From positions 1,364,001-1,428,000 of the forward strand of contig NZ_AP019632.1 in the NCBI RefSeq assembly GCF_007035645.1: a stretch of 64,000 nucleotides of DNA, read 5' to 3'. Position numbers and translations under genes: made by a program. The notes beneath the pieces were generated by a model that worked only from the letters and a program-made list of their open reading frames with translations, made no database searches and was not told where the DNA came from. Below, piece after piece: positions 7,148 to 54,832 of this stretch (position 1 is its first letter; every line of letters starts with the position of its first letter). The stretch comes from Enterobacter asburiae (GTDB taxonomy: Bacteria > Pseudomonadota > Gammaproteobacteria > Enterobacterales > Enterobacteriaceae).

Positions 7148-7216
7148 GAATTATTCTTGATGTACACGCAGGGCAGTTTACACTGCTGGCTGATTTTTAT
7201 TGTCCGGATTGCCTGC

Positions 7217-8860
7217 ATGCAACTACTTCTCCTCGTCTGGCGTCAGTATCGCTGGCCCTTCATCGCAGTAATGGCGTTAAGCCTCGCCAGCGCCGCGCTG
7301 GGTATTGGCCTGATCGCGTTTATTAACGTGCGGTTGATTGAAATGGTCGACACCTCGCTCTCCGTTCTGCCGGAGTTTCTCGGCCTGCTGCTCCTGTTGA
7401 TGGCGGTTACGCTCGGTTCCCAGCTGGCGCTGACCGCGCTCGGGCACCATTTCGTTTTCCGTTTGCGCAGTGAGTTTATCAAGCGGATCCTCGATACCCA
7501 GGTTGAGCGCGTTGAGCAGCTCGGCAGCGCATCCCTGCTGGCGGGGCTGACCAGCGACGTGCGCGCCATCACCATCGCGTTCGTTCGGCTGCCGGAGCTG
7601 GTGCAGGGGATCGTTCTGACCTTTGGCTCGGCTGCCTATCTCGCCTGGCTCTCCAGCAAAATGCTGGCGGTGACCGCCCTGTGGATTGCCATTACCATCT
7701 GGGGCGGCTTTATGCTGGTGTCGCGCGTCTATAAACACATGGCGGTGCTGCGCGAAACCGAAGATAAGCTCTACAACGATTACCAGACGGTGCTGGAAGG
7801 GCGCAAAGAGCTCACCCTGAACCGCGAGCGCGCCGAGCATATCTTTAATCATCTCTATATCCCGGACGCGCGCGAATACCGTCATCATATTATTCGCGCC
7901 GATACCTTCCACCTGAGCGCGGTGAACTGGTCAAACATCATGATGCTGGGTGCCATTGGCCTGGTATTCTGGATGGCGAACGGCCTGGGCTGGGCGGACA
8001 CCAACGTCGCGGCAACCTACTCGCTGACGCTGCTGTTTTTACGCACGCCGCTGCTCTCGGCGGTCGGTGCGCTGCCCACCCTGCTGAGTGCGCAGGTGGC
8101 CTTTAATAAGCTCAAAAAATTCGATCTCGCGCCGTTTAAAGCCGAATTCCCGCGCCCGCAGGCCTTCCCGAACTGGCAGACGCTGGAGCTGCGTAACGTC
8201 ACGTTTCGCTATCAGGACAGCGCCTTCTCCGTGGGGCCGGTCAACCTGACGCTCCGCCGCGGTGAACTGCTGTTCCTCATCGGCGGCAACGGCAGCGGTA
8301 AATCTACGCTGGCGATGCTGCTGACCGGACTCTATCAGCCGCAGTCGGGCGAGATTTTGCTGGATGGCAGGGCGCTGAGCGCGGAGAAGCCCGAGGATTA
8401 CCGCAAGCTTTTCTCGGCGGTGTTCACCGACGTCTGGCTGTTTGACCAACTGCTGGGGCCGGAAGGGCAACCGGCCAATCCTGCGCTGGTGGAAAAATGG
8501 CTGGCGCAGCTGCAGATGTCGCACAAGCTGGAGTTACAGGACGGGAAGATCCTCAACCTGAAGCTTTCCAAAGGGCAGAAAAAGCGCGTGGCGCTGCTGC
8601 TGGCGCTGGCGGAAGAGCGTGACATCATCCTGCTGGACGAGTGGGCTGCGGATCAGGACCCGCATTTCCGCCGCGAGTTTTATCAGGTGCTGTTGCCGCT
8701 GATGCAGGAGATGGGCAAAACCATTTTCGCCATCAGCCACGACGATCACTACTTCATTCATGCTGACCGCCTGCTGGAGATGCGTGACGGCAAGCTGAGC
8801 GAGCTGACCGGTGAAGAGCGCGTTGCGGCCTCGCGTGACGCGGTAGCGCGCACGGCCTGA
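7217..8860 (+). CDS. yojI: ABC exporter YojI (microcin J25 / peptide exporter family)
   Basis: Inner-membrane half-transporter with fused ATPase; in E. coli it exports microcin J25 together with TolC. 547 residues from ATG 7217, the start that matches the E. coli N-terminus ([15 protein letters not shown]); the frame is open upstream to 7157. Six membrane helices in residues 1-300, then a nucleotide-binding domain with Walker [10 protein letters not shown], signature LSKGQKKR, Walker [11 protein letters not shown] and the H-loop in ISHDDH. It lies downstream of alkB in the same orientation with a 69-base gap. Confidence 0.93.
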
Positions 8861-27522: not shown

Positions 27523-28508
27523 GAGCAATACTGACACCTGAAGTAGCACCAATGTCGGGAGTTGTGCTGTTCCGCCCAGGCAACGAATTGCTGTGGCTGT
27601 TTCGTCGTGGCCGGGTTGTGATTGAGACACCTTCGGAAGCTATCCAGCATCTGCCATCTGGGCTGATTCCTGAAGCACACCAGCCACTGACGGATGATGT
27701 CAGTGTGCATGAGCTTTTCCTGAATGAGAGAGTTATTCAGCATGCTGGTGGTCTTAGCAGTCTTGATGCCTGGCTGGAGCGTAAATTCGAATGTCAGTGG
27801 CCCCACAATGACTGGCACTCAAAGGACTTCACGATAATGCGTCACGCACCCGGAAGCATTCGCCTTTGTTGGGGATGTGATAACCAGTTGCGCGAACAAA
27901 CCACTGAAAGACTGGCAGGAATTGCCATGCAGAACCTGGTAAAATGGCTACTCGAAAGGGTGAATATTATGCTGGGCTTTGGTGCAGACCACACCCTGAC
28001 GCTGCCGGAGTTCTGCTGGTGGATGGTACGTAACGATCTGGCTGACCTAATTCCTGAATCAGTGGCTAGCCAGGCGCTCCGGATTAAGCCTGAATCTCAC
28101 AGCTCAGTGATGCGGGAAAGTGAGATTGTTCCGTCTTTACCGGCGACTGAAATCCTCCAGGAGAAAGTTAAGAAGGTAGTCTCGGTGAAGGTCGATCCTG
28201 AATCACCGGAATCTTTCATGCTGAGGCCAAAGCGCCGCCGCTGGGAGAACGATAAGTACACCCGCTGGGTGAAGTCGCAGCAGTGCAGTTGCTGTAATAA
28301 CCCGGCAGACGACCCCCACCACCTGATAGGCCACGGGCAGGGTGGAATGGGTACCAAAGCGCACGACCTGTTTGTGATACCGCTGTGCAGAGCGCATCAC
28401 GATGAGTTGCACGCAGATCCTGTGGCATTTGAAGCGAAGCACGGCGACCAGTTATCGCTATTGATTCGGTTTTTAGATCGTGCGCTGGCAATAGGCGTAT
28501 TAGCATGA
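27519..28508 (+). CDS. DUF968 phage protein with HNH-like C-terminus
   Basis: 329 residues. The C-terminal half has CSCCNNPADDPHHLIGHGQG and PLCRAHHDELH, a zinc-ligated HNH-type arrangement characteristic of DUF968 proteins between rusA and Q in lambdoid phages. The N-terminal half is not recognisable. Start in an ATGA overlap with rusA. Nuclease activity is plausible from the motif but unproven. Confidence 0.8.
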   Translation: MRAILTPEVAPMSGVVLFRPGNELLWLFRRGRVVIETPSEAIQHLPSGLIPEAHQPLTDDVSVHELFLNERVIQHAGGLSSLDAWLERKFECQWPHNDWHSKDFTIMRHAPGSIRLCWGCDNQLREQTTERLAGIAMQNLVKWLLERVNIMLGFGADHTLTLPEFCWWMVRNDLADLIPESVASQALRIKPESHSSVMRESEIVPSLPATEILQEKVKKVVSVKVDPESPESFMLRPKRRRWENDKYTRWVKSQQCSCCNNPADDPHHLIGHGQGGMGTKAHDLFVIPLCRAHHDELHADPVAFEAKHGDQLSLLIRFLDRALAIGVLA

Positions 28509-28522
28509 ACAGTGGAGAAAAC

Positions 28523-28885
28523 ATGCGTGATATTCAGTTAGTTTTAGAACGTTGGGGTGGATGGGCCGCGTGCGATAACTCTGGAGTTGATTACTCACCA
28601 ATCGCTGCAGGCTTCAAAGGACTTCTTCCACAAACGAGTCAATACCGCCTTTCATGCACTGACGACGACGCACTAATTATTGAAGGCTGCTTAGCGCGTC
28701 TTAAAAAGCGTAAGCCCTATGAGCATTCGCTCTTAGTTGCGCATTATCTTTATGGCATCTCAAAACGGAAAATTGCGAAAGCGCGAAAAAAAGACGAGAA
28801 GATAATACGGATTGAAATTCAGATGGCAGAGGGTTTTATTGAAGGCTGCCTTTCCATGCTTGATGTTCAATTGGACATGGATTGA
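28523..28885 (+). CDS. Q-like late antitermination protein
   Basis: 120 residues from ATG 28523 (ribosome site GTGGAG); an ATG at 28505 overlaps the DUF968 stop and is an alternative. MRDIQLVLERWGGWAACD and the pattern GFKGLLP...CTDDDALIIEGCLARLKK match the Q family that loads on RNA polymerase at the late promoter. It is the last gene of the rightward early operon, followed by the moron and then the late genes. Confidence 0.85.
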   Translation: MRDIQLVLERWGGWAACDNSGVDYSPIAAGFKGLLPQTSQYRLSCTDDDALIIEGCLARLKKRKPYEHSLLVAHYLYGISKRKIAKARKKDEKIIRIEIQMAEGFIEGCLSMLDVQLDMD

Positions 28886-28892
28886 TGATAAG

Positions 28893-28925
28893 CCCCCGTA
28901 AATAATTAATTTACGGGGGGGATAT
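28893..28925. terminator. Shared terminator of the Q-like and TIR genes
   Basis: CCCCCGTAAAT/ATTTACGGGGG stem with a short AT loop between two convergent stop codons (28885 and 28927). It can serve both directions. Confidence 0.75.
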
Positions 28926-28926
28926 T

Positions 28927-29742
28927 TTATTCAATGCTGACTTTAAGAGGTTTATGACGATAGTTGATAATGCTAAATCTAATTTGATCTCTAATAAAAT
29001 CTTCAGGGAGGCTATAGCTATCCAAAGACGCCATAACTTCATCTTCATTGTAAATCCCTGATTGCATTATGCTTTCCAGTTGATTATTCAATCTCCGAAT
29101 CTCATTCTTTGTAATGTTTGCTTTTGTGGTTTTATTAGCATTTAATTCGTTGTTGTTGGCTTCGAGTTGTCTAACGCGCTGATTCAAGGTGCGAGTGTTA
29201 TTTAGTATTTCTGTCAGGATATCCTGCTCAGTTCGTGGAGGAATTACTTCTTGTGGTGGGTTGTTAACTAAGGCTGCATTGAAACTATCCTCAAACTGAG
29301 GCCAGTAGGTATCAAATACTTGTCTTAATATCCTCTCATCTAAAGCCTTGTCAACAAGGCAAGCATTAATTGTTCTTGTTAGTTCCCAAACACTATGATT
29401 GTTCGGAGTCGTATGATTGAATTGTGCAAGTGGGTCTTGTAAGTCTTCAGGATTAAGGTCAATCAAAAAAGTGCAAACTCTATTGGTAGTAAGGCCTTTA
29501 GCTAATGCGCCGGTTTCAAAAAGAATCCAAGGTTTATTTTTGTTCTCTTGTGTAAGACATACTACTCCCACTGAAACATCTTTCAATTTATCATTAATTT
29601 CTGAAAACCAAATTGCACCACGGTCAATGTCTCTTGTTGAGATCCAAGGTTGTGAAGCTTGGATTACGCACTTTAGCCAATCACTGAAAATCTCAGCCAC
29701 AACTTTGCTTCGCTGACCTGACCAACTTATAAATACTTTCAC
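28927..29742 (-). CDS. TIR-domain protein, candidate anti-phage moron
   Basis: 271 residues, GTG start at 29742 with AGAGG seven bases upstream. Residues 1-130 form a TIR-like domain: MKVFISWSGQRSKVVAEIFS, then WISTRDIDRGAIWFSEIN, VGVVCLTQEN and PWILFETGALAKG, where E76 is placed like the catalytic glutamate of NAD-cleaving TIRs. Residues about 165-215 look coiled-coil. It is AT-rich compared with its neighbours, opposite in orientation, and sits between the Q gene and the late promoter, the classic moron position. Function as an NADase or abortive-infection effector is inferred from the domain only. Confidence 0.85.
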   Translation of the reverse strand: MKVFISWSGQRSKVVAEIFSDWLKCVIQASQPWISTRDIDRGAIWFSEINDKLKDVSVGVVCLTQENKNKPWILFETGALAKGLTTNRVCTFLIDLNPEDLQDPLAQFNHTTPNNHSVWELTRTINACLVDKALDERILRQVFDTYWPQFEDSFNAALVNNPPQEVIPPRTEQDILTEILNNTRTLNQRVRQLEANNNELNANKTTKANITKNEIRRLNNQLESIMQSGIYNEDEVMASLDSYSLPEDFIRDQIRFSIINYRHKPLKVSIE

Positions 29743-29757
29743 GATTACCTCTTCTGA

Positions 29758-29779
29758 ATGGAAATGCAGATATTTCCAT
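29758..29779 (-). promoter_or_regulatory. Palindrome upstream of the TIR gene
   Basis: Perfect inverted repeat ATGGAAAT (29758-29765) / ATTTCCAT (29772-29779), six bases apart, 16 bases before the TIR start. Position and symmetry suggest an operator or an mRNA hairpin over the ribosome site. The surrounding sequence is AT-rich and could hold the promoter. Confidence 0.45.
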
Positions 29780-29799
29780 CAATTTACATCTAAAAAAAT

Positions 29800-29914
29800 A
29801 AAAAATCATTAGTGCGGTCCGCAATTTATGGGTTACTGTGCTAAGAGTGGTATCTACGCCACGAACTTAGAGCTATTCATAAACCGCGCAATGACGAGGT
29901 TTTTGTCACTTTAG
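29800..29914 (+). promoter_or_regulatory. Probable late promoter region (pR'-like)
   Basis: Between the TIR promoter and the terminator ahead of the lysis genes. In lambdoid phages the Q-dependent late promoter lies here. I cannot assign the -10 and -35 or the qut site with confidence; the assignment rests on position and on the terminator that follows. Confidence 0.4.
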
Positions 29915-29940
29915 AGGCTGCCTACTGGCGGCCTTTTTTT
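29915..29940 (+). terminator. Terminator downstream of the late promoter (tR'-like)
   Basis: GGCTGCC/GGCGGCC stem with a four-base loop and seven T, just before the holin. Q-type proteins normally read through such a terminator. Confidence 0.8.
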
Positions 29941-29986: not shown

Positions 29987-30382
29987 ATGTCCGATCCTGT
30001 TTCTGGCACTACGGTAGCGACTGGTGGTCTGATGGGGGCCAGCATGTTCGGCCTGGCAACCGGCATAGATTACGGTGTGGTGTTTGGCGCATTCGCTGGT
30101 GCGGTGTTCTACGTCGCTACTGCGGTTAATATCAGTCGCCTTAAGCTAGTGGGCTACTTCATCACCTCATTCATCTTCGGTGTTATCGGCGCGCCACTGC
30201 TTGGCTCTTACTTCTCCAAATGGACCGGGTATAGCGACAGGCCACTTGATGCGCTGGGCGCGGTAATCGTAGCCGCCATTGCTATTAAGCTGCTGACGTT
30301 CGTCAATAGTCAGGATTTGGGTAGCCTGTTTGGAATTCTCTCACGTTTACGTGGTGGAGGGGCCAGCAATGGTAACAAGTGA
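29987..30382 (+). CDS. Holin, first
   Basis: 131 residues with three or four membrane segments (about 12-35, 40-55, 58-80, 90-108) and a basic tail. Start of the lysis cassette, 47 bases after the terminator. Its 3' end overlaps the second holin-type gene by 14 bases. The family is not certain; hydrophobicity and position argue for holin. Confidence 0.72.
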   Translation: MSDPVSGTTVATGGLMGASMFGLATGIDYGVVFGAFAGAVFYVATAVNISRLKLVGYFITSFIFGVIGAPLLGSYFSKWTGYSDRPLDALGAVIVAAIAIKLLTFVNSQDLGSLFGILSRLRGGGASNGNK

Positions 30383-30674
30383 TCCGAGTGCGATGGTGAA
30401 TGCCCTCATCTGTGGGGTGATCGTCCTTGCTCTGATGTTCTACCAGCGCGGCGGGGCGAGACATCGCCCTCTGATATCGCTGATGGCTTATTTCACGGTG
30501 CTGGTATACGCCAGCGTCCCTTTCCGTTACCTGTTCGGCCTGTACCATGAATCGCACTGGTTCGTGGTGCTGGTGAACGTCCTGATATGCGCCGCCGTTC
30601 TCTGGGCTCGGGGAAACGTAGCACGCATCATTGACGTCCTGAGGCATTCGCATGACCAAAGACGAAATTTTTAA
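30369..30674 (+). CDS. Holin, second (phage_holin_3 type)
   Basis: 101 residues from ATG 30369. Segments at about 10-25, 35-55 and 65-85; motif YQRGGARHRPLISLMAYFTV followed by YASVPFRYLFG is typical of this holin family. It overlaps the endolysin start by 23 bases, so lysis genes are tightly coupled. It could be holin or antiholin relative to the upstream protein. Confidence 0.78.
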   Translation: MVTSDPSAMVNALICGVIVLALMFYQRGGARHRPLISLMAYFTVLVYASVPFRYLFGLYHESHWFVVLVNVLICAAVLWARGNVARIIDVLRHSHDQRRNF

Positions 30675-31194
30675 TGCCATCCTCGGTAAAGAGGGCGGCT
30701 ATGTTAATCACCCTGACGACAAGGGCGGTCCAACTAACTGGGGGATCACACAAGCGGTAGCTCGCGCCCACGGATTCACCGGGGATATGCGGAACCTGAC
30801 CCGCCAACAGGCGCTGGATATCCTGACGGCTGACTACTGGACAGGGCCACGCTTTGATCTTGTTTCTGAGGTATCACCAGCCATCGCTGCCGAACTGTGC
30901 GATACCGGCGTTAACATGGGACCATCGGTTCAGACCAAATGGTTCCAGCGCTGGCTGAACGTGTTCAACATTCAGGGCTCGCTCTATCCCGATCTGATTG
31001 CAGATGGTTTTATCGGTCCGCGAACTATCAGCGCATTAAAAAGCTATCTTGCCCGGCGAGGAAAAGAGGGGGAGCTGGTTATGCTCCGTGCCCTGAATTG
31101 CAGCCAGGGTCAGCGTTATCTCGAACTGGCAGAACAGCGCAGCGCGAACGAGACGTTTGTTTATGGCTGGGTAAAGGAGCGGGTGGTTATATGA
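30652..31194 (+). CDS. Endolysin, glycoside hydrolase family 108
   Basis: 180 residues. Muramidase-type lysozyme: catalytic Glu14 in LGKEGGYVNHPDDKGGPTNWG, then the family segment YWTGPRFDL and a C-terminal peptidoglycan-binding part (DGFIGPRTISAL). No signal peptide, so it depends on the holins. ATGA overlap with the Rz-type gene. Confidence 0.88.
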   Translation: MTKDEIFNAILGKEGGYVNHPDDKGGPTNWGITQAVARAHGFTGDMRNLTRQQALDILTADYWTGPRFDLVSEVSPAIAAELCDTGVNMGPSVQTKWFQRWLNVFNIQGSLYPDLIADGFIGPRTISALKSYLARRGKEGELVMLRALNCSQGQRYLELAEQRSANETFVYGWVKERVVI

Positions 31195-32154: not shown

Positions 32155-33624
32155 ATGGGTAGCAATATGGATGTCACAATTAATGGTATTCCGTATGCTC
32201 CCGCCTGCACAAATTCATCGCGGATCGGCATTGCAATAACGACACACAACCGGGCAGACGTTTTAAAGCGCTCCATTGAGCAGCACCAGAAGCATCTTCC
32301 CGCCGGCGCGCTGGTGGTGGTTGTCGATGATGGTTCAAAACCTGCAGTGGTAGTGCCACACGGCGTGCAGCTGCTTCGCCATGAAACATCACTCGGCATT
32401 GTTGCTTCGAAGAACGCTAGCCTGTCAGCCCTGATGGATGCCGGGTGCGAGCACCTGTTTTTATGGGATGACGACGGCTGGCCTATCGCCGACAACTGGC
32501 ACCTGCCGTATATCGAATCTCCAGAGCCGCACCTGGCTTATCAGTTTCTCGATCTGGCTGGCCCGCGAAAGATTAACGATATGACCGTTCTGTACCGGGA
32601 TGATAAGCATATTGCTTACACCGGGCAGCGTGGTGTGATGCTGTACTACCATCGCAATGCTATTGAGAAGGTTGGCGGGTTCGATCCGGTGTATGGTAGG
32701 GGCATGTATGAGCATCCTGATTTGGCGCTTCGGATTTATAACGCTGGCTTAACGTCCTGGGCGTTTGCTGATGTGGTTGGCTCTGAAAAGCTGATTCATT
32801 CAATGGACGAGTACGAAGAAGGCGCGCGCAGCATACCGAGGCCAGAACGTGAAGCGCTCGATAAAAAGAACGCTGTGATTTACGGGCAGCGCCGGGATTC
32901 AGGCTATACAGGCTATGCCGAGTATCGATCTCAGCGCGACGTGGTTATCACTACGTTACTGACCAGCCAGCCAGACCCGCAGCGCGGTACGAAAATGGCT
33001 GCCTCGCCTGACATGCTGGCTAAATGGGCCTCATCACTTCGGAATTGTAGCCGTATTGCGCTGGTGGATGAGCTGCATACGGCACCGGCAGACGTTGAGC
33101 TGTATCGCGTCCCTGACGTGAAGATGAATGTCTACTTCCGGCGCTGGCTTCACATCTGGCAGCATCTACGCGATCACCCTGAATACCGGTTCGTCTGGTG
33201 TACCGATGGTACCGATGTCGAAATGCTTCGCGCACCATGGGATGAAATGCAGCCAGGGAATGTTTACGTCGGTTCCGAACCGAAGACCTACGCCGACACC
33301 TGGGCAAAGCAGAATCATCCTGAGCGTATCTATCAGGAGTTCATTGAAGCGCACCGCAATAATGTGATGCTTAACGCTGGTCTGCTGGGTGGCAGCCGCG
33401 CTGATGTTATGGCGTTCGCTCACGGCATCATCCGTCTTTACTACCGGATCGAGAGTTATCGCTTCTGGAAGAAAGAACAGGCTGGCGCTGCGGTGGGGGA
33501 TATGATCGCTTTTGGCATTGTCGCTAAGTCTTTTGGCGATCGCATTGTCACCGGCCCGCGCATCCATACAGTTTTTAAGACTGATGGTATTGGCAAAGAA
33601 TGCGCCTGGTTTAAACACAAATAG
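32155..33624 (+). CDS. Two-domain glycosyltransferase (GT2 plus second GT-A module)
   Basis: 489 residues, no membrane segment or signal peptide. Residues 22-260 are a family-2 glycosyltransferase (GIAITTHNRADVLKRS, VVVDDGS with D58-D59, LFLWDDDG with D105-D107, and GGFDPVYGRG). Residues 262-489 look like a second GT-A fold with its own metal site TDGTD (D351, D354) and VMLNAGLLGG. Cytoplasmic, placed just before the packaging genes rather than with wall-modification genes. Target (DNA, virion protein or surface glycan) unknown. An ATG at 32167 is an alternative start. Confidence 0.8.
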   Translation: MGSNMDVTINGIPYAPACTNSSRIGIAITTHNRADVLKRSIEQHQKHLPAGALVVVVDDGSKPAVVVPHGVQLLRHETSLGIVASKNASLSALMDAGCEHLFLWDDDGWPIADNWHLPYIESPEPHLAYQFLDLAGPRKINDMTVLYRDDKHIAYTGQRGVMLYYHRNAIEKVGGFDPVYGRGMYEHPDLALRIYNAGLTSWAFADVVGSEKLIHSMDEYEEGARSIPRPEREALDKKNAVIYGQRRDSGYTGYAEYRSQRDVVITTLLTSQPDPQRGTKMAASPDMLAKWASSLRNCSRIALVDELHTAPADVELYRVPDVKMNVYFRRWLHIWQHLRDHPEYRFVWCTDGTDVEMLRAPWDEMQPGNVYVGSEPKTYADTWAKQNHPERIYQEFIEAHRNNVMLNAGLLGGSRADVMAFAHGIIRLYYRIESYRFWKKEQAGAAVGDMIAFGIVAKSFGDRIVTGPRIHTVFKTDGIGKECAWFKHK

Positions 33625-41187: not shown

Positions 41188-41343
41188 ATGTCCTGTTCAG
41201 GATGCGCTGAAAGGCGCGAGTGGTTAAAAAAATGGGTTAAAATTGCGTATGAACGAGCAACAGGCAAACGAACTGATATCGGCGCTACGCGAACAGACAG
41301 CAGCGCAAATGGCACAAACGGACGCGATAAACCGACTGGCTGA
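41188..41343 (+). CDS. 51-residue CxxC protein, overlapping
   Basis: Too short for routine gene calling. MSCSGCAERREWLKKWVKIA then YERATGKRTDIGATRTDS and a Gly/Asn-rich end. The CxxC near the N-terminus and the first 25 residues resemble small proteins encoded in head gene clusters of enteric siphophages. Its ATG lies three bases after the connector stop; the second half overlaps the next gene in another frame. Confidence 0.6.
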   Translation: MSCSGCAERREWLKKWVKIAYERATGKRTDIGATRTDSSANGTNGRDKPTG

Positions 41344-41461
41344 TTCGAATGTGGCACTATGTGACCTCATTATCCAGTCTATGGCTGAAGATGACACAAT
41401 CGAAATTTCTGCGCTTGATGATTTGAAGCCACAATACCTCAGCCAAAAAGCAAGGGGGTAG
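41249..41461 (+). CDS. Small helical phage protein
   Basis: 70 residues from ATG 41249. MNEQQANELISALREQTAAQ followed by a helical NRLADSNVALCDLIIQSMAE, ending in a short acidic part. Its 5' part overlaps the 51-residue gene. Function unknown; common in HK97-type head clusters. Confidence 0.65.
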   Translation: MNEQQANELISALREQTAAQMAQTDAINRLADSNVALCDLIIQSMAEDDTIEISALDDLKPQYLSQKARG

Positions 41462-41462
41462 T

Positions 41463-41795
41463 ATGCAGGCCGGGAAATTACGGCACCAGGTAACAATCCA
41501 GGAGCCGGTGACGGCACAGAATCCTGATACAGGAGCTGTAAATAAAACCTGGCGTGATGTCGCAATTGTCTGGGCAGAGGTTTACCCGTTGTCTGCCCGT
41601 GAATTTATCGCGGCGCAGGCATCGCAGGGAGAAATCACTACCCGCATAACGATTCGCTTCCGTACCGGGATTACTCGCAAACATCGCATCCTTTTTCGCG
41701 GTGGAATATACAATATCGAAGGTGTTTTACCTGATCCAAAAAGCGGGAATGAATATCTTACTCTTCCGTGTTCAATGGGGGTAAGCGATGGCTGA
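41463..41795 (+). CDS. Head closure protein
   Basis: 110 residues. Beta-rich adaptor (SPP1 gp16 type) with the characteristic start MQAGKLRHQVTIQEPVTAQ, then TWRDVAIVWAEVYPLSARE and GGIYNIEGVLPDPKSGNEYL. Closes the head before tail joining. Overlaps the next gene by 8 bases. Confidence 0.88.
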   Translation: MQAGKLRHQVTIQEPVTAQNPDTGAVNKTWRDVAIVWAEVYPLSAREFIAAQASQGEITTRITIRFRTGITRKHRILFRGGIYNIEGVLPDPKSGNEYLTLPCSMGVSDG

Positions 41796-52912: not shown

Positions 52913-54832
52913 ATGAATTTTCGTTATGATATCAACGGACTGCGTGCGTTTGCAGTATTCGCTGTAGTCCTTTTCCATTTTAACCCAACTTGGTTGCCTG
53001 GCGGATTTGCGGGCGTCGATGTGTTTTTTGTTATATCTGGTTATTTAATGACCAGAATAATTGTTGGCAGATATGATACAGGAAAGTTATCAGTCTGGGG
53101 ATTTTACCTTGATCGAGGTCGACGAATAATTCCTGCGCTGGCATTTCTGTGTGCTGTGTTGATGGCTTATGGCATCTGGAAGTTGTCACCGATTGGCCTG
53201 ACACAGTTAGCTAAACACACAGTTGGTAGCCTGTTGTTTATCTCTAACGGAATGTATTGGCTCGAGTCAGGCTACTTTGATGCCTCCTCACACACAAAAT
53301 GGCTGCTTCATACCTGGTCTTTGTCGGTGGAGTGGCAATTTTATCTTATTTATCCTTTCATCATTCTCTGTCTTGTCAGATATTTAGGTCGGAATCGTCT
53401 CGGTGTAGGGTTAATAGGCGTATGTGGATTGTCGTACGCATTGTCCATTCTAACCCCTGAATCGCATCAAAGTTCGGCGTTTTATCTGATCCATACGCGT
53501 GCGTGGGAGATGGTGGCAGGTGGGCTGGTTTGCCTTTACCCTTTGGGCCTAACCGCAAAACGAGCAAAATTTGTCGAGTTGACAGGGTTTATTCTGGTTT
53601 TGGCGTCTTATCTTTTAATGAGCGAGCGTGTTGCGTGGCCGGGGTATATGGCACTGATTCCTGTTCTCGGTGCCAGCATGATTCTTGCTGCAAATAGGCA
53701 TGACTCCATCCTCACCAATAACAGGTTTGCGCAGTTCCTCGGAACGACATCGTATTCTATTTACCTGTGGCATTGGCCCGTCGTCGTATACATGCTTCAG
53801 AATGAAATTTCTGGCGCTTCGGCTTCGCTATGCGGCATCGTAGTATCCATTATGCTTGGATGGATATCGTATACACTGGTAGAAAACAGACTTCGCGGCG
53901 ACAAATCTCTCAAATTGAAGGCGTCTTTCGCTCGTCGGCACGTTCTGGCAGCAGCATTCAGTGTTGTTCTGGCATCAGGTTTATTTGTTTATCAATCTGA
54001 AGGTCTTCCATCTCGCTACGATGGGAAAATTAATGAACTGACCAAGATTAAGGATGTTTACTCCTTCTTTGAGATACCTGCTGTCTGGAGAAATGGCGTG
54101 TGTCATTCATCTCCTATCGGTATGAGTGAGCAGGAAAGGATCCGCCAGTGTGCAGAGACAGGTAAACACAAAATATTCTTGTGGGGTGACTCGTATGCAG
54201 CGGCCCTATACCCTGGACTGAAAGCTCTTCAGAAAGAAACCAAGAAATCATTCTCCATCGAACAGTTTACCGACGGTAATGGTTCACCATTCTTTACTAA
54301 CCTGTCGCTGGCCGATAACAAGAAAGACCTGATTACAACGAACGAGGAAAAACTACAGATTCTGGCTGCCATCAAACCGGAGAAAGTTGTAATCACCTGG
54401 ATGGTTTTAGGAAGTAACACTATTCAGGACCCAGCGCAGGCTGTCGCAGGAATAAAAGACACTATTGCCAGAATTCGCCGGGCTTCACCGGCAACAGAGA
54501 TCATAGTTATCGGACCGGTACCTCAGTGGAACGAGAATCTTGTAGCAATTATGTTGAAGTACTGGGACCAGTTTGGAACATACCCTCCAAAATACATGGA
54601 GTATGGACTCAATAAAGGTATGTTTGCTTGGGATGAACTGCTCAGTAAAGAACTAAAAGCGGATGGGGTCGAGTATATCTCAGCGATGAAAGAGCTTTGC
54701 AATGACCAAGGCTGCGTTACTCGAGTGGGAGAAGATGCTCATTCTTTAGCTGCAGCTGACTGGGGCCATCTAACCCCAGCCGCCTCACGATACTTCATCG
54801 AGCGTATAAAGGATAAGTTACTGCCTCAATAG
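52913..54832 (+). CDS. O-acyltransferase, OafA/OatA type with SGNH domain
   Basis: 639 residues. Ten or eleven membrane segments in residues 1-340 forming an acyltransferase-3 domain with the R-X10-H motif (Arg11 to His22, NGLRAFAVFAVVLFHF), then a soluble SGNH domain with GDSYA (Asp426, Ser427) and DWGH (Asp616, His619). This is the two-domain build of OafB and OatA proteins that O-acetylate polysaccharides. In a prophage it is a candidate for serotype conversion or receptor masking. It overlaps the convergent hydrolase gene by 7 bases. AT-richer than its surroundings. Confidence 0.86.
   Translation: MNFRYDINGLRAFAVFAVVLFHFNPTWLPGGFAGVDVFFVISGYLMTRIIVGRYDTGKLSVWGFYLDRGRRIIPALAFLCAVLMAYGIWKLSPIGLTQLAKHTVGSLLFISNGMYWLESGYFDASSHTKWLLHTWSLSVEWQFYLIYPFIILCLVRYLGRNRLGVGLIGVCGLSYALSILTPESHQSSAFYLIHTRAWEMVAGGLVCLYPLGLTAKRAKFVELTGFILVLASYLLMSERVAWPGYMALIPVLGASMILAANRHDSILTNNRFAQFLGTTSYSIYLWHWPVVVYMLQNEISGASASLCGIVVSIMLGWISYTLVENRLRGDKSLKLKASFARRHVLAAAFSVVLASGLFVYQSEGLPSRYDGKINELTKIKDVYSFFEIPAVWRNGVCHSSPIGMSEQERIRQCAETGKHKIFLWGDSYAAALYPGLKALQKETKKSFSIEQFTDGNGSPFFTNLSLADNKKDLITTNEEKLQILAAIKPEKVVITWMVLGSNTIQDPAQAVAGIKDTIARIRRASPATEIIVIGPVPQWNENLVAIMLKYWDQFGTYPPKYMEYGLNKGMFAWDELLSKELKADGVEYISAMKELCNDQGCVTRVGEDAHSLAAADWGHLTPAASRYFIERIKDKLLPQ

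Follow-up and report, generated by a model that had tools for sequence, protein, structure and literature searches.

The window analysed here, a stretch of 64 000 nucleotides from Enterobacter asburiae, contains a prophage with integrase, repressor, CII-like protein, terminase, portal, head, tape-measure and tail-fibre genes. Within this prophage, a 271-residue open reading frame on the reverse strand (28927–29742), which starts with GTG and was confirmed as real by ORF calling, lies between the gene for the late antiterminator Q (28505–28885, forward strand; PF06530, 1.1e-52) and that for the holin, the first lysis gene (29987–30382, forward; phrog_198), with the endolysin gene beyond (30652–31194, forward; phrog_315). 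The gene runs antisense to Q as well as to the genes for holin and endolysin, as the original prediction had stated, and the predicted AT-richness is borne out by a GC content of 37.4% compared with 51.8% for the window, 50.5% for DUF968 and Q and 54.9% for the lysis genes. A ribosome-binding site of its own, AAGAGG, is present upstream of the GTG codon (29748–29753, reverse), and the range first given for the feature, which ended at 29779, corresponds to the ORF plus its 5' leader. The leader does contain the predicted palindrome (29758–29779, 8 bp arms), but the palindrome is not conserved among relatives at the same site, and a conserved operator at this position was rejected on that alignment. 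A terminator shared with the TIR gene is not supported by hairpin scoring: the hairpin with a T-rich tail that follows Q (28893–28919) is terminator-like on the forward strand only.

On the other side of the gene, a pattern match to the signature GCGGTCCGC...TAAGAGTGG (29814–29850, forward) marks a putative late promoter, followed 3' by a terminator-like hairpin identified by hairpin scoring (29913–29936, forward). The gene is convergent with Q and divergent from this putative promoter, and its placement as a moron is supported. The palindrome GCGGTCCGC (29814–29822) overlaps the place where the −35 element of the late promoter would be expected. Elsewhere in the prophage, PHROG matches identify glycosyltransferase and O-antigen acetylase moron genes (32155–33624 and 52913–54832), and an antisense ORF of 113 residues without a PHROG match is found in the head region (41224–41565, reverse).

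TIR proteins belong to the immune enzymes and in many cases cleave NAD. The predicted N-terminal TIR domain is corroborated in the window protein by matches to Pfam TIR_2 (E 1.2e-6; 29.4 bits, the cut-off being 28) and to the PADLOC TIR-TM model (2.6e-58 over residues 1–230) and by the AlphaFold prediction that had been proposed as a check, which returned a model with a pLDDT of 88 and a TIR fold from residue 1 to about residue 149 (29296–29742, reverse), followed by helices at residues 172–208, 212–227 and 247–263. ThsB_TIR is absent from the seven Pfam matches of the protein at E 1, and among PHROG profiles the gene matches PHROG 13899 (9.6e-102), a family of unknown function. The best fold matches of the model in the PDB are SPARTA, SpbK and SARM1. 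A phmmer search of the PDB at E 10 gave no sequence relative of any kind, and the likeness to SpbK is one of fold. Glu76, in the sequence PWILFETGAL (codon 29515–29517, reverse), is invariant in two alignments of relatives (102/102 and 99/99), in keeping with the conserved glutamate originally proposed, and occupies the position of the catalytic glutamate in the WxxxE motif of NADase-type TIR domains; the spacing of this motif is the same in SARM1. The product of the TIR gene would be expected to cleave NAD+. Among 198 genomes of the host family, one other TIR match was found, a weak one over residues 166–239.

Relatives were sampled by scanning GTDB and IMG/VR contigs for sequence patterns, with 80 of 343 confirmed genome matches kept. 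TIR domains are known in proteins that act on host physiology or outside the cell, and further genes of the conversion type occur in the window prophage, so a role of this kind could be considered for the TIR protein; it appears highly improbable, however, as the relatives are spread over many bacterial phyla and some archaea and recur in phages. The TIR gene of phage mEp390 (mEp390_047), which is 60.6% identical, has the same place and orientation, and further TIR genes that adjoin Q and are antisense to it occur in L005–L009, L012, L021, L023, L030 and L036.

The two parts of the protein have diverged at different rates. For the TIR part, dN/dS is 0.02 against L005 and 0.03 against L006, whereas for the C-terminal part it is 0.23 and 0.12, so that the latter appears about 4–11 times looser in comparisons with these nearest relatives from the same site. 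Across four window pairs the TIR part remains at 0.02–0.05, although in every window pair except L005 synonymous change has come close to saturation or passed it, so that the remaining ratios are rough. For L007, identity is 92% in the TIR part compared with 45% in the C-terminal part, and for L008 90% compared with 39%. A remnant was rejected on the dN/dS values, which point to strong purifying selection on the TIR part. The contrast in rates suits, but does not prove, a fixed enzyme joined to a changing sensor, the proposed sensor being the helical, faster-evolving region of residues 161–271 (28930–29262, reverse).

A quick tree built from 128 rows places chromosomal genes from Marinobacter and Marinomonas (L031 and L032) within the group formed by the TIR genes found next to Q. 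As the support is only 82, the phage site may have been entered once or a few times. The close Marinobacter relative (L031, 5956–6804) lies in an apparent integron cassette array, in which small genes on the same strand are separated by repeats starting with TAACAA and finishing with GCGTTA. A strict motif search gave one attC candidate, and the reading as an integron cassette array therefore rests on the repeats. In another four loci (L114, L115, L116 and L123), TIR relatives lie beside a common antisense gene of about 153 residues that is GemA-like by eye, as in Mu-like phages.

The original prediction made no mention of the fact that insertions recur at this position. The slot that receives them extends from the Q stop codon to the late promoter in lambdoid phages with a 21-type Q. 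Its cargo is interchangeable, mostly antisense and often defence-like, which makes the slot a hotspot, and in some phages it is empty. When viral contigs were scanned with the window Q and the best 80 of 274 loci were taken, four were too short after Q and 76 slots could be evaluated; among these, the cargo directly after Q is antisense in 72 and on the same strand in four, and no slot is empty. The antisense ORFs are supported by homologous clustering and by tight neighbouring junctions; the DUF968–Q junction has a median of −3 nt (74 loci) and the Q–holin distance a median of 1633 nt (50 loci).

The 72 antisense slots fall into about 13 cargo sets, which include a KAP NTPase, TIR, PDC-S42 and many unknowns. 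The larger sets are C0+C1 (14 slots), C2 (11), C3 (10), C4+C5+C6 (eight) and C7+C8 (seven); TIR accounts for four and the KAP NTPase for three, C13, C11+C12+C14 and C15 have two each, and nine architectures occur singly, several of them being variants of the sets just named. The same-strand cargo comprises L174, which encodes a DUF6602 and NucC-like protein, its near-copies L220 and L223, and L175, to which a putAbiC match from the pooled scan was assigned. Scans of 32 cargo proteins, one of them from E. coli 21AR0133, gave PADLOC matches to PDC-S20/PifA/QatA for L162 (KAP), to PDC-S42 for L154 (C6), to a TIR effector model for L211 and to NucC for L174, and in pooled scans to TIR-TM, NYN, mREase_II/SRA and SDH_protease. 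Representatives of C2 (L180) and C3 (L204) had no PADLOC match and nothing above any Pfam cut-off, and that of C8 (L193) was also without a PADLOC match; that of C1 (L153) had a weak PADLOC match alone (0.0056), an equivalent E. coli gene being annotated as DUF6731.

A cargo-blind set of 125 loci, 120 of them viral and five from genomes, was assembled from the right border of the slot and shares many contigs with the Q survey. Q was recognized in 104 of the loci, the other 21 lacking a recognized Q in some cases owing to a short stretch. Of these 104, 64 are occupied, with 558–1764 nt between Q and the border palindrome, and 40 are empty, with Q ending at most 30 nt from the palindrome start. 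Empty slots make up 37 of 43 at a Q identity of 50–75% and three of 61 at 75% or more; occupancy is thus tied to lineage, the empty slots mostly going with a more distant Q. These counts bear on the possibility that the cargo is retained mainly for its antisense position, as a spacer or regulator separating Q from the late promoter, with the function of the protein being secondary. The antisense cargo in 72 of 76 slots near the window Q type, none of them empty, would agree with such a role, but the 40 empty slots among 104, the same-strand cargo in four slots and the low dN/dS of the TIR part in four window pairs make it highly improbable.

The left border of the slot is the Q stop codon, after which many sets carry a hairpin-like repeat that belongs to the cassette. 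The right border is GCGG[AT]CCGC, followed in the cargo direction by a stretch resembling GTTAGTGATTTTT. This palindrome occurs within 330 nt in 66 of the 72 cargo sets, and in the late-promoter block beyond it the stretch upstream matches that of the window, wholly or partly, at 66 of 72 loci. The pattern GCGGWCCGCN{18,24}AAGAGTGG has one match in the window and none in 100 shuffles, is found in at least 120 viral stretches and is kept in relatives, suggesting that a late promoter lies at 29814–29850. In the 198 host-family genomes, five matches, including that of the window itself, compare with eight for the reversed control, so the bare signature is unspecific at genome scale and needs the context of Q or cargo. 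The identification of GCGGWCCGC with a known Q-binding element is unsupported; the 21Q-binding element published in PMC6606751 (excerpt) is a direct repeat of TGAGCA, which it does not resemble.

On the reverse strand, a −10-like hexamer, TAAATT (29781–29786), in a position common to several cargo classes, lies 17 nt from a weak −35-like ATGATT (29804–29809). A TATAAT-like hexamer starts 27 nt past the palindrome in the cargo direction in 47 of 91 distinct occupied sequences and in never more than 15 at any other of the 25 positions tested; among 20 empty sites it occurs in none at position 27, in 13 at position 17 and in ten at position 19. By class, it is present in TIR (7/7), C8 (7/7), C2 (15/16), C6 (9/11), C16 (2/2), C10 (3/6) and C12 (2/4), in only 2/18 of C1, and in none of C3 (0/10), C13 (2), C15 (1), C23 (2) and C24 (1). 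Since seven cargo classes share the position of this hexamer, the slot may provide a leftward promoter; the sequences are related and the counts non-independent, making the evidence suggestive only. A consensus promoter scan found nothing at the TIR start and gave three matches in 1.2 kb compared with 3.2 in shuffles.

The explanation that best accommodates these observations, and which we consider somewhat better than an even prospect, is that the TIR gene encodes a single-gene anti-phage factor and is exchangeable cargo in a dedicated slot of lambdoid prophages. It would be transcribed leftward in the lysogen, probably from a promoter adjoining the late promoter; the helical C-terminus would probably sense an infecting phage and cluster the TIR domains, which would use up NAD+ and abort the infection in a manner like that of SpbK. 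Early transcripts reading past Q would collide with the convergent transcription of the TIR gene, and on induction its expression might also be blocked by the action of Q at the late promoter; late transcripts do not cross the gene directly, as the late promoter points away. We infer the trigger, the expression in the lysogen and the switch-off on induction. Against this explanation, the proposed leftward promoter departs from the consensus, being only a weak match, and the promoter scan missed it.

The arrangement can be compared with phi80 Tai and S. aureus Tha (PMC11364771 and PMC11087260, excerpts), which are likewise prophage defence genes antisense to phage operons. Their proteins and sites are unrelated to those of the window, in which the cargo is flanked by Q and the late promoter, convergent with the former and divergent from the latter. 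In S. aureus 80alpha, the antisense arrangement balances immunity against induction (PMC11087260, excerpt). In phi80, over-expression of Q lowered Tai, and the Tai level was unchanged after mitomycin C induction (PMC11364771, excerpt); the latter observation disfavours a simple switch-off. SpbK of ICEBs1, the model for the proposed mechanism, has its TIR domain at the C-terminus (residues 111–266; PMC12847820, excerpt), in the opposite order to that of the window protein, with which it shares 17% identity. Activation of SpbK depends on a phage portal protein.

Alternatively, the TIR protein could respond to infection by making an ADP-ribose messenger, as has been suggested for AC1 and described for Thoeris; the membrane effector switched on by it would be separate and supplied by the host or by another element. 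A precedent is AC1, in which a cloned three-gene set that includes a TIR relative protected E. coli C (PMC9122126, excerpt). The AC1 TIR protein is homologous to that of the window (38% identity in the TIR part), is also phage cargo and also matches PADLOC TIR-TM, but it is encoded alongside a 2TM and a 1TM protein, and its C-terminus, phage type and slot differ. The AC1 result supports a defence reading for the TIR family, while its inclusion of two membrane genes counts against a single-gene factor. The PADLOC 2TM-TIR and 1TM-TIR models, which match the two AC1 neighbours as a positive control, match none of 53 prophage ORFs (at least 75 residues, picked mostly longest first), in agreement with the original statement that no partner gene is visible; nor were PADLOC matches to the cyclase or pAgo partners of CBASS, Pycsar and SPARTA found among these ORFs at E 1e-5, a search without a positive control.

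In the own genome, PF08937 (ThsB) is absent, the control search being positive in Caulobacter; AC1 1TM and 2TM, ThsA_Macro, SLATT_1 and STALD gave no match there or in the control genomes, ThsA having been sought with PF20016 and PF18185, so that a working control exists for the ThsB search only. The resemblance to Thoeris lies in the TIR protein itself and in relatives that adjoin Thoeris genes, as assigned by Pfam: one lies beside ThsB_TIR and ThsA_Macro (L042, 4533–6792) and another beside ThsB_TIR (L052, 6001–8413). The window protein differs in matching TIR_2 rather than ThsB_TIR and, in a search whose control genomes were likewise blank, in the lack of a ThsA match in its genome.

A third relative, with 79% identity to the window protein in the TIR part, lies beside a SLATT protein (L032, 4580–7946), in a same-strand run with two more genes that are TIR-like by eye. 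The surroundings have the appearance of a multi-TIR cluster. BLAST clusters place a Thoeris- or SLATT-type neighbour within 3.5 kb in 11 of 149 loci, duplicates included. In 106 window-like loci, a same-strand neighbour of fewer than 400 residues within 300 nt has a predicted membrane helix upstream in 14 and downstream in six, and in 44 both flanks are free of same-strand neighbours out to 150 nt. Neighbours of the membrane-helix, Thoeris or SLATT type would suit a signalling TIR, but the absence of partner models in the prophage, the lack of matches in the own genome (with a working control for ThsB only) and the 44 loci without a close neighbour leave messenger production an unlikely, if serious, alternative. 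A self-contained, SpbK-like TIR NADase is favoured over a TIR that makes a messenger.

The TIR protein itself varies an established type. The slot resembles the defence hotspots of P2 and P4 (PMC9122126, excerpt) in being a fixed phage site with interchangeable cargo, and differs in belonging to other phages and in its borders, the Q stop and the late-promoter palindrome. No description of it was found in the open-access literature covered (excerpts of PMC9122126, PMC10884400, PMC11087260, PMC11364771 and PMC12111858), which is not proof that it is unreported. IbfA, a 518-residue ATPase/TOPRIM plasmid protein (PMC12111858, excerpt), was dropped as a relative of the cargo.

We also propose, tentatively and with less than even confidence, that 21-type-Q lambdoid phages keep a standard immune socket, from the Q stop to GCGGWCCGC, with a leftward promoter that would be on in the lysogen and shut by Q and early transcription. 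TIR would then be a new, partner-free defence plug whose variable C-terminus reads the invader, and C0+C1, C2, C3, C7+C8 and others would be further undescribed defence systems. If this is correct, a short DNA signature combined with Q context would bring to light large numbers of candidate defence genes in prophages, some of them from families that match neither Pfam nor PADLOC, as is the case for C2 and C3 at least, judging by the representatives scanned. It would also offer a testable model of how a prophage immune gene can be on in lysogeny and yet out of the way at induction, and would help to separate two readings of a widespread TIR family, as self-sufficient NADases or as messenger makers. 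In the E. coli YJ4 prophage (L355), the slot of which holds a two-gene antisense cargo, a gene annotated with an Acb2/Tad1 domain is found after the lysis genes (7208–7381).
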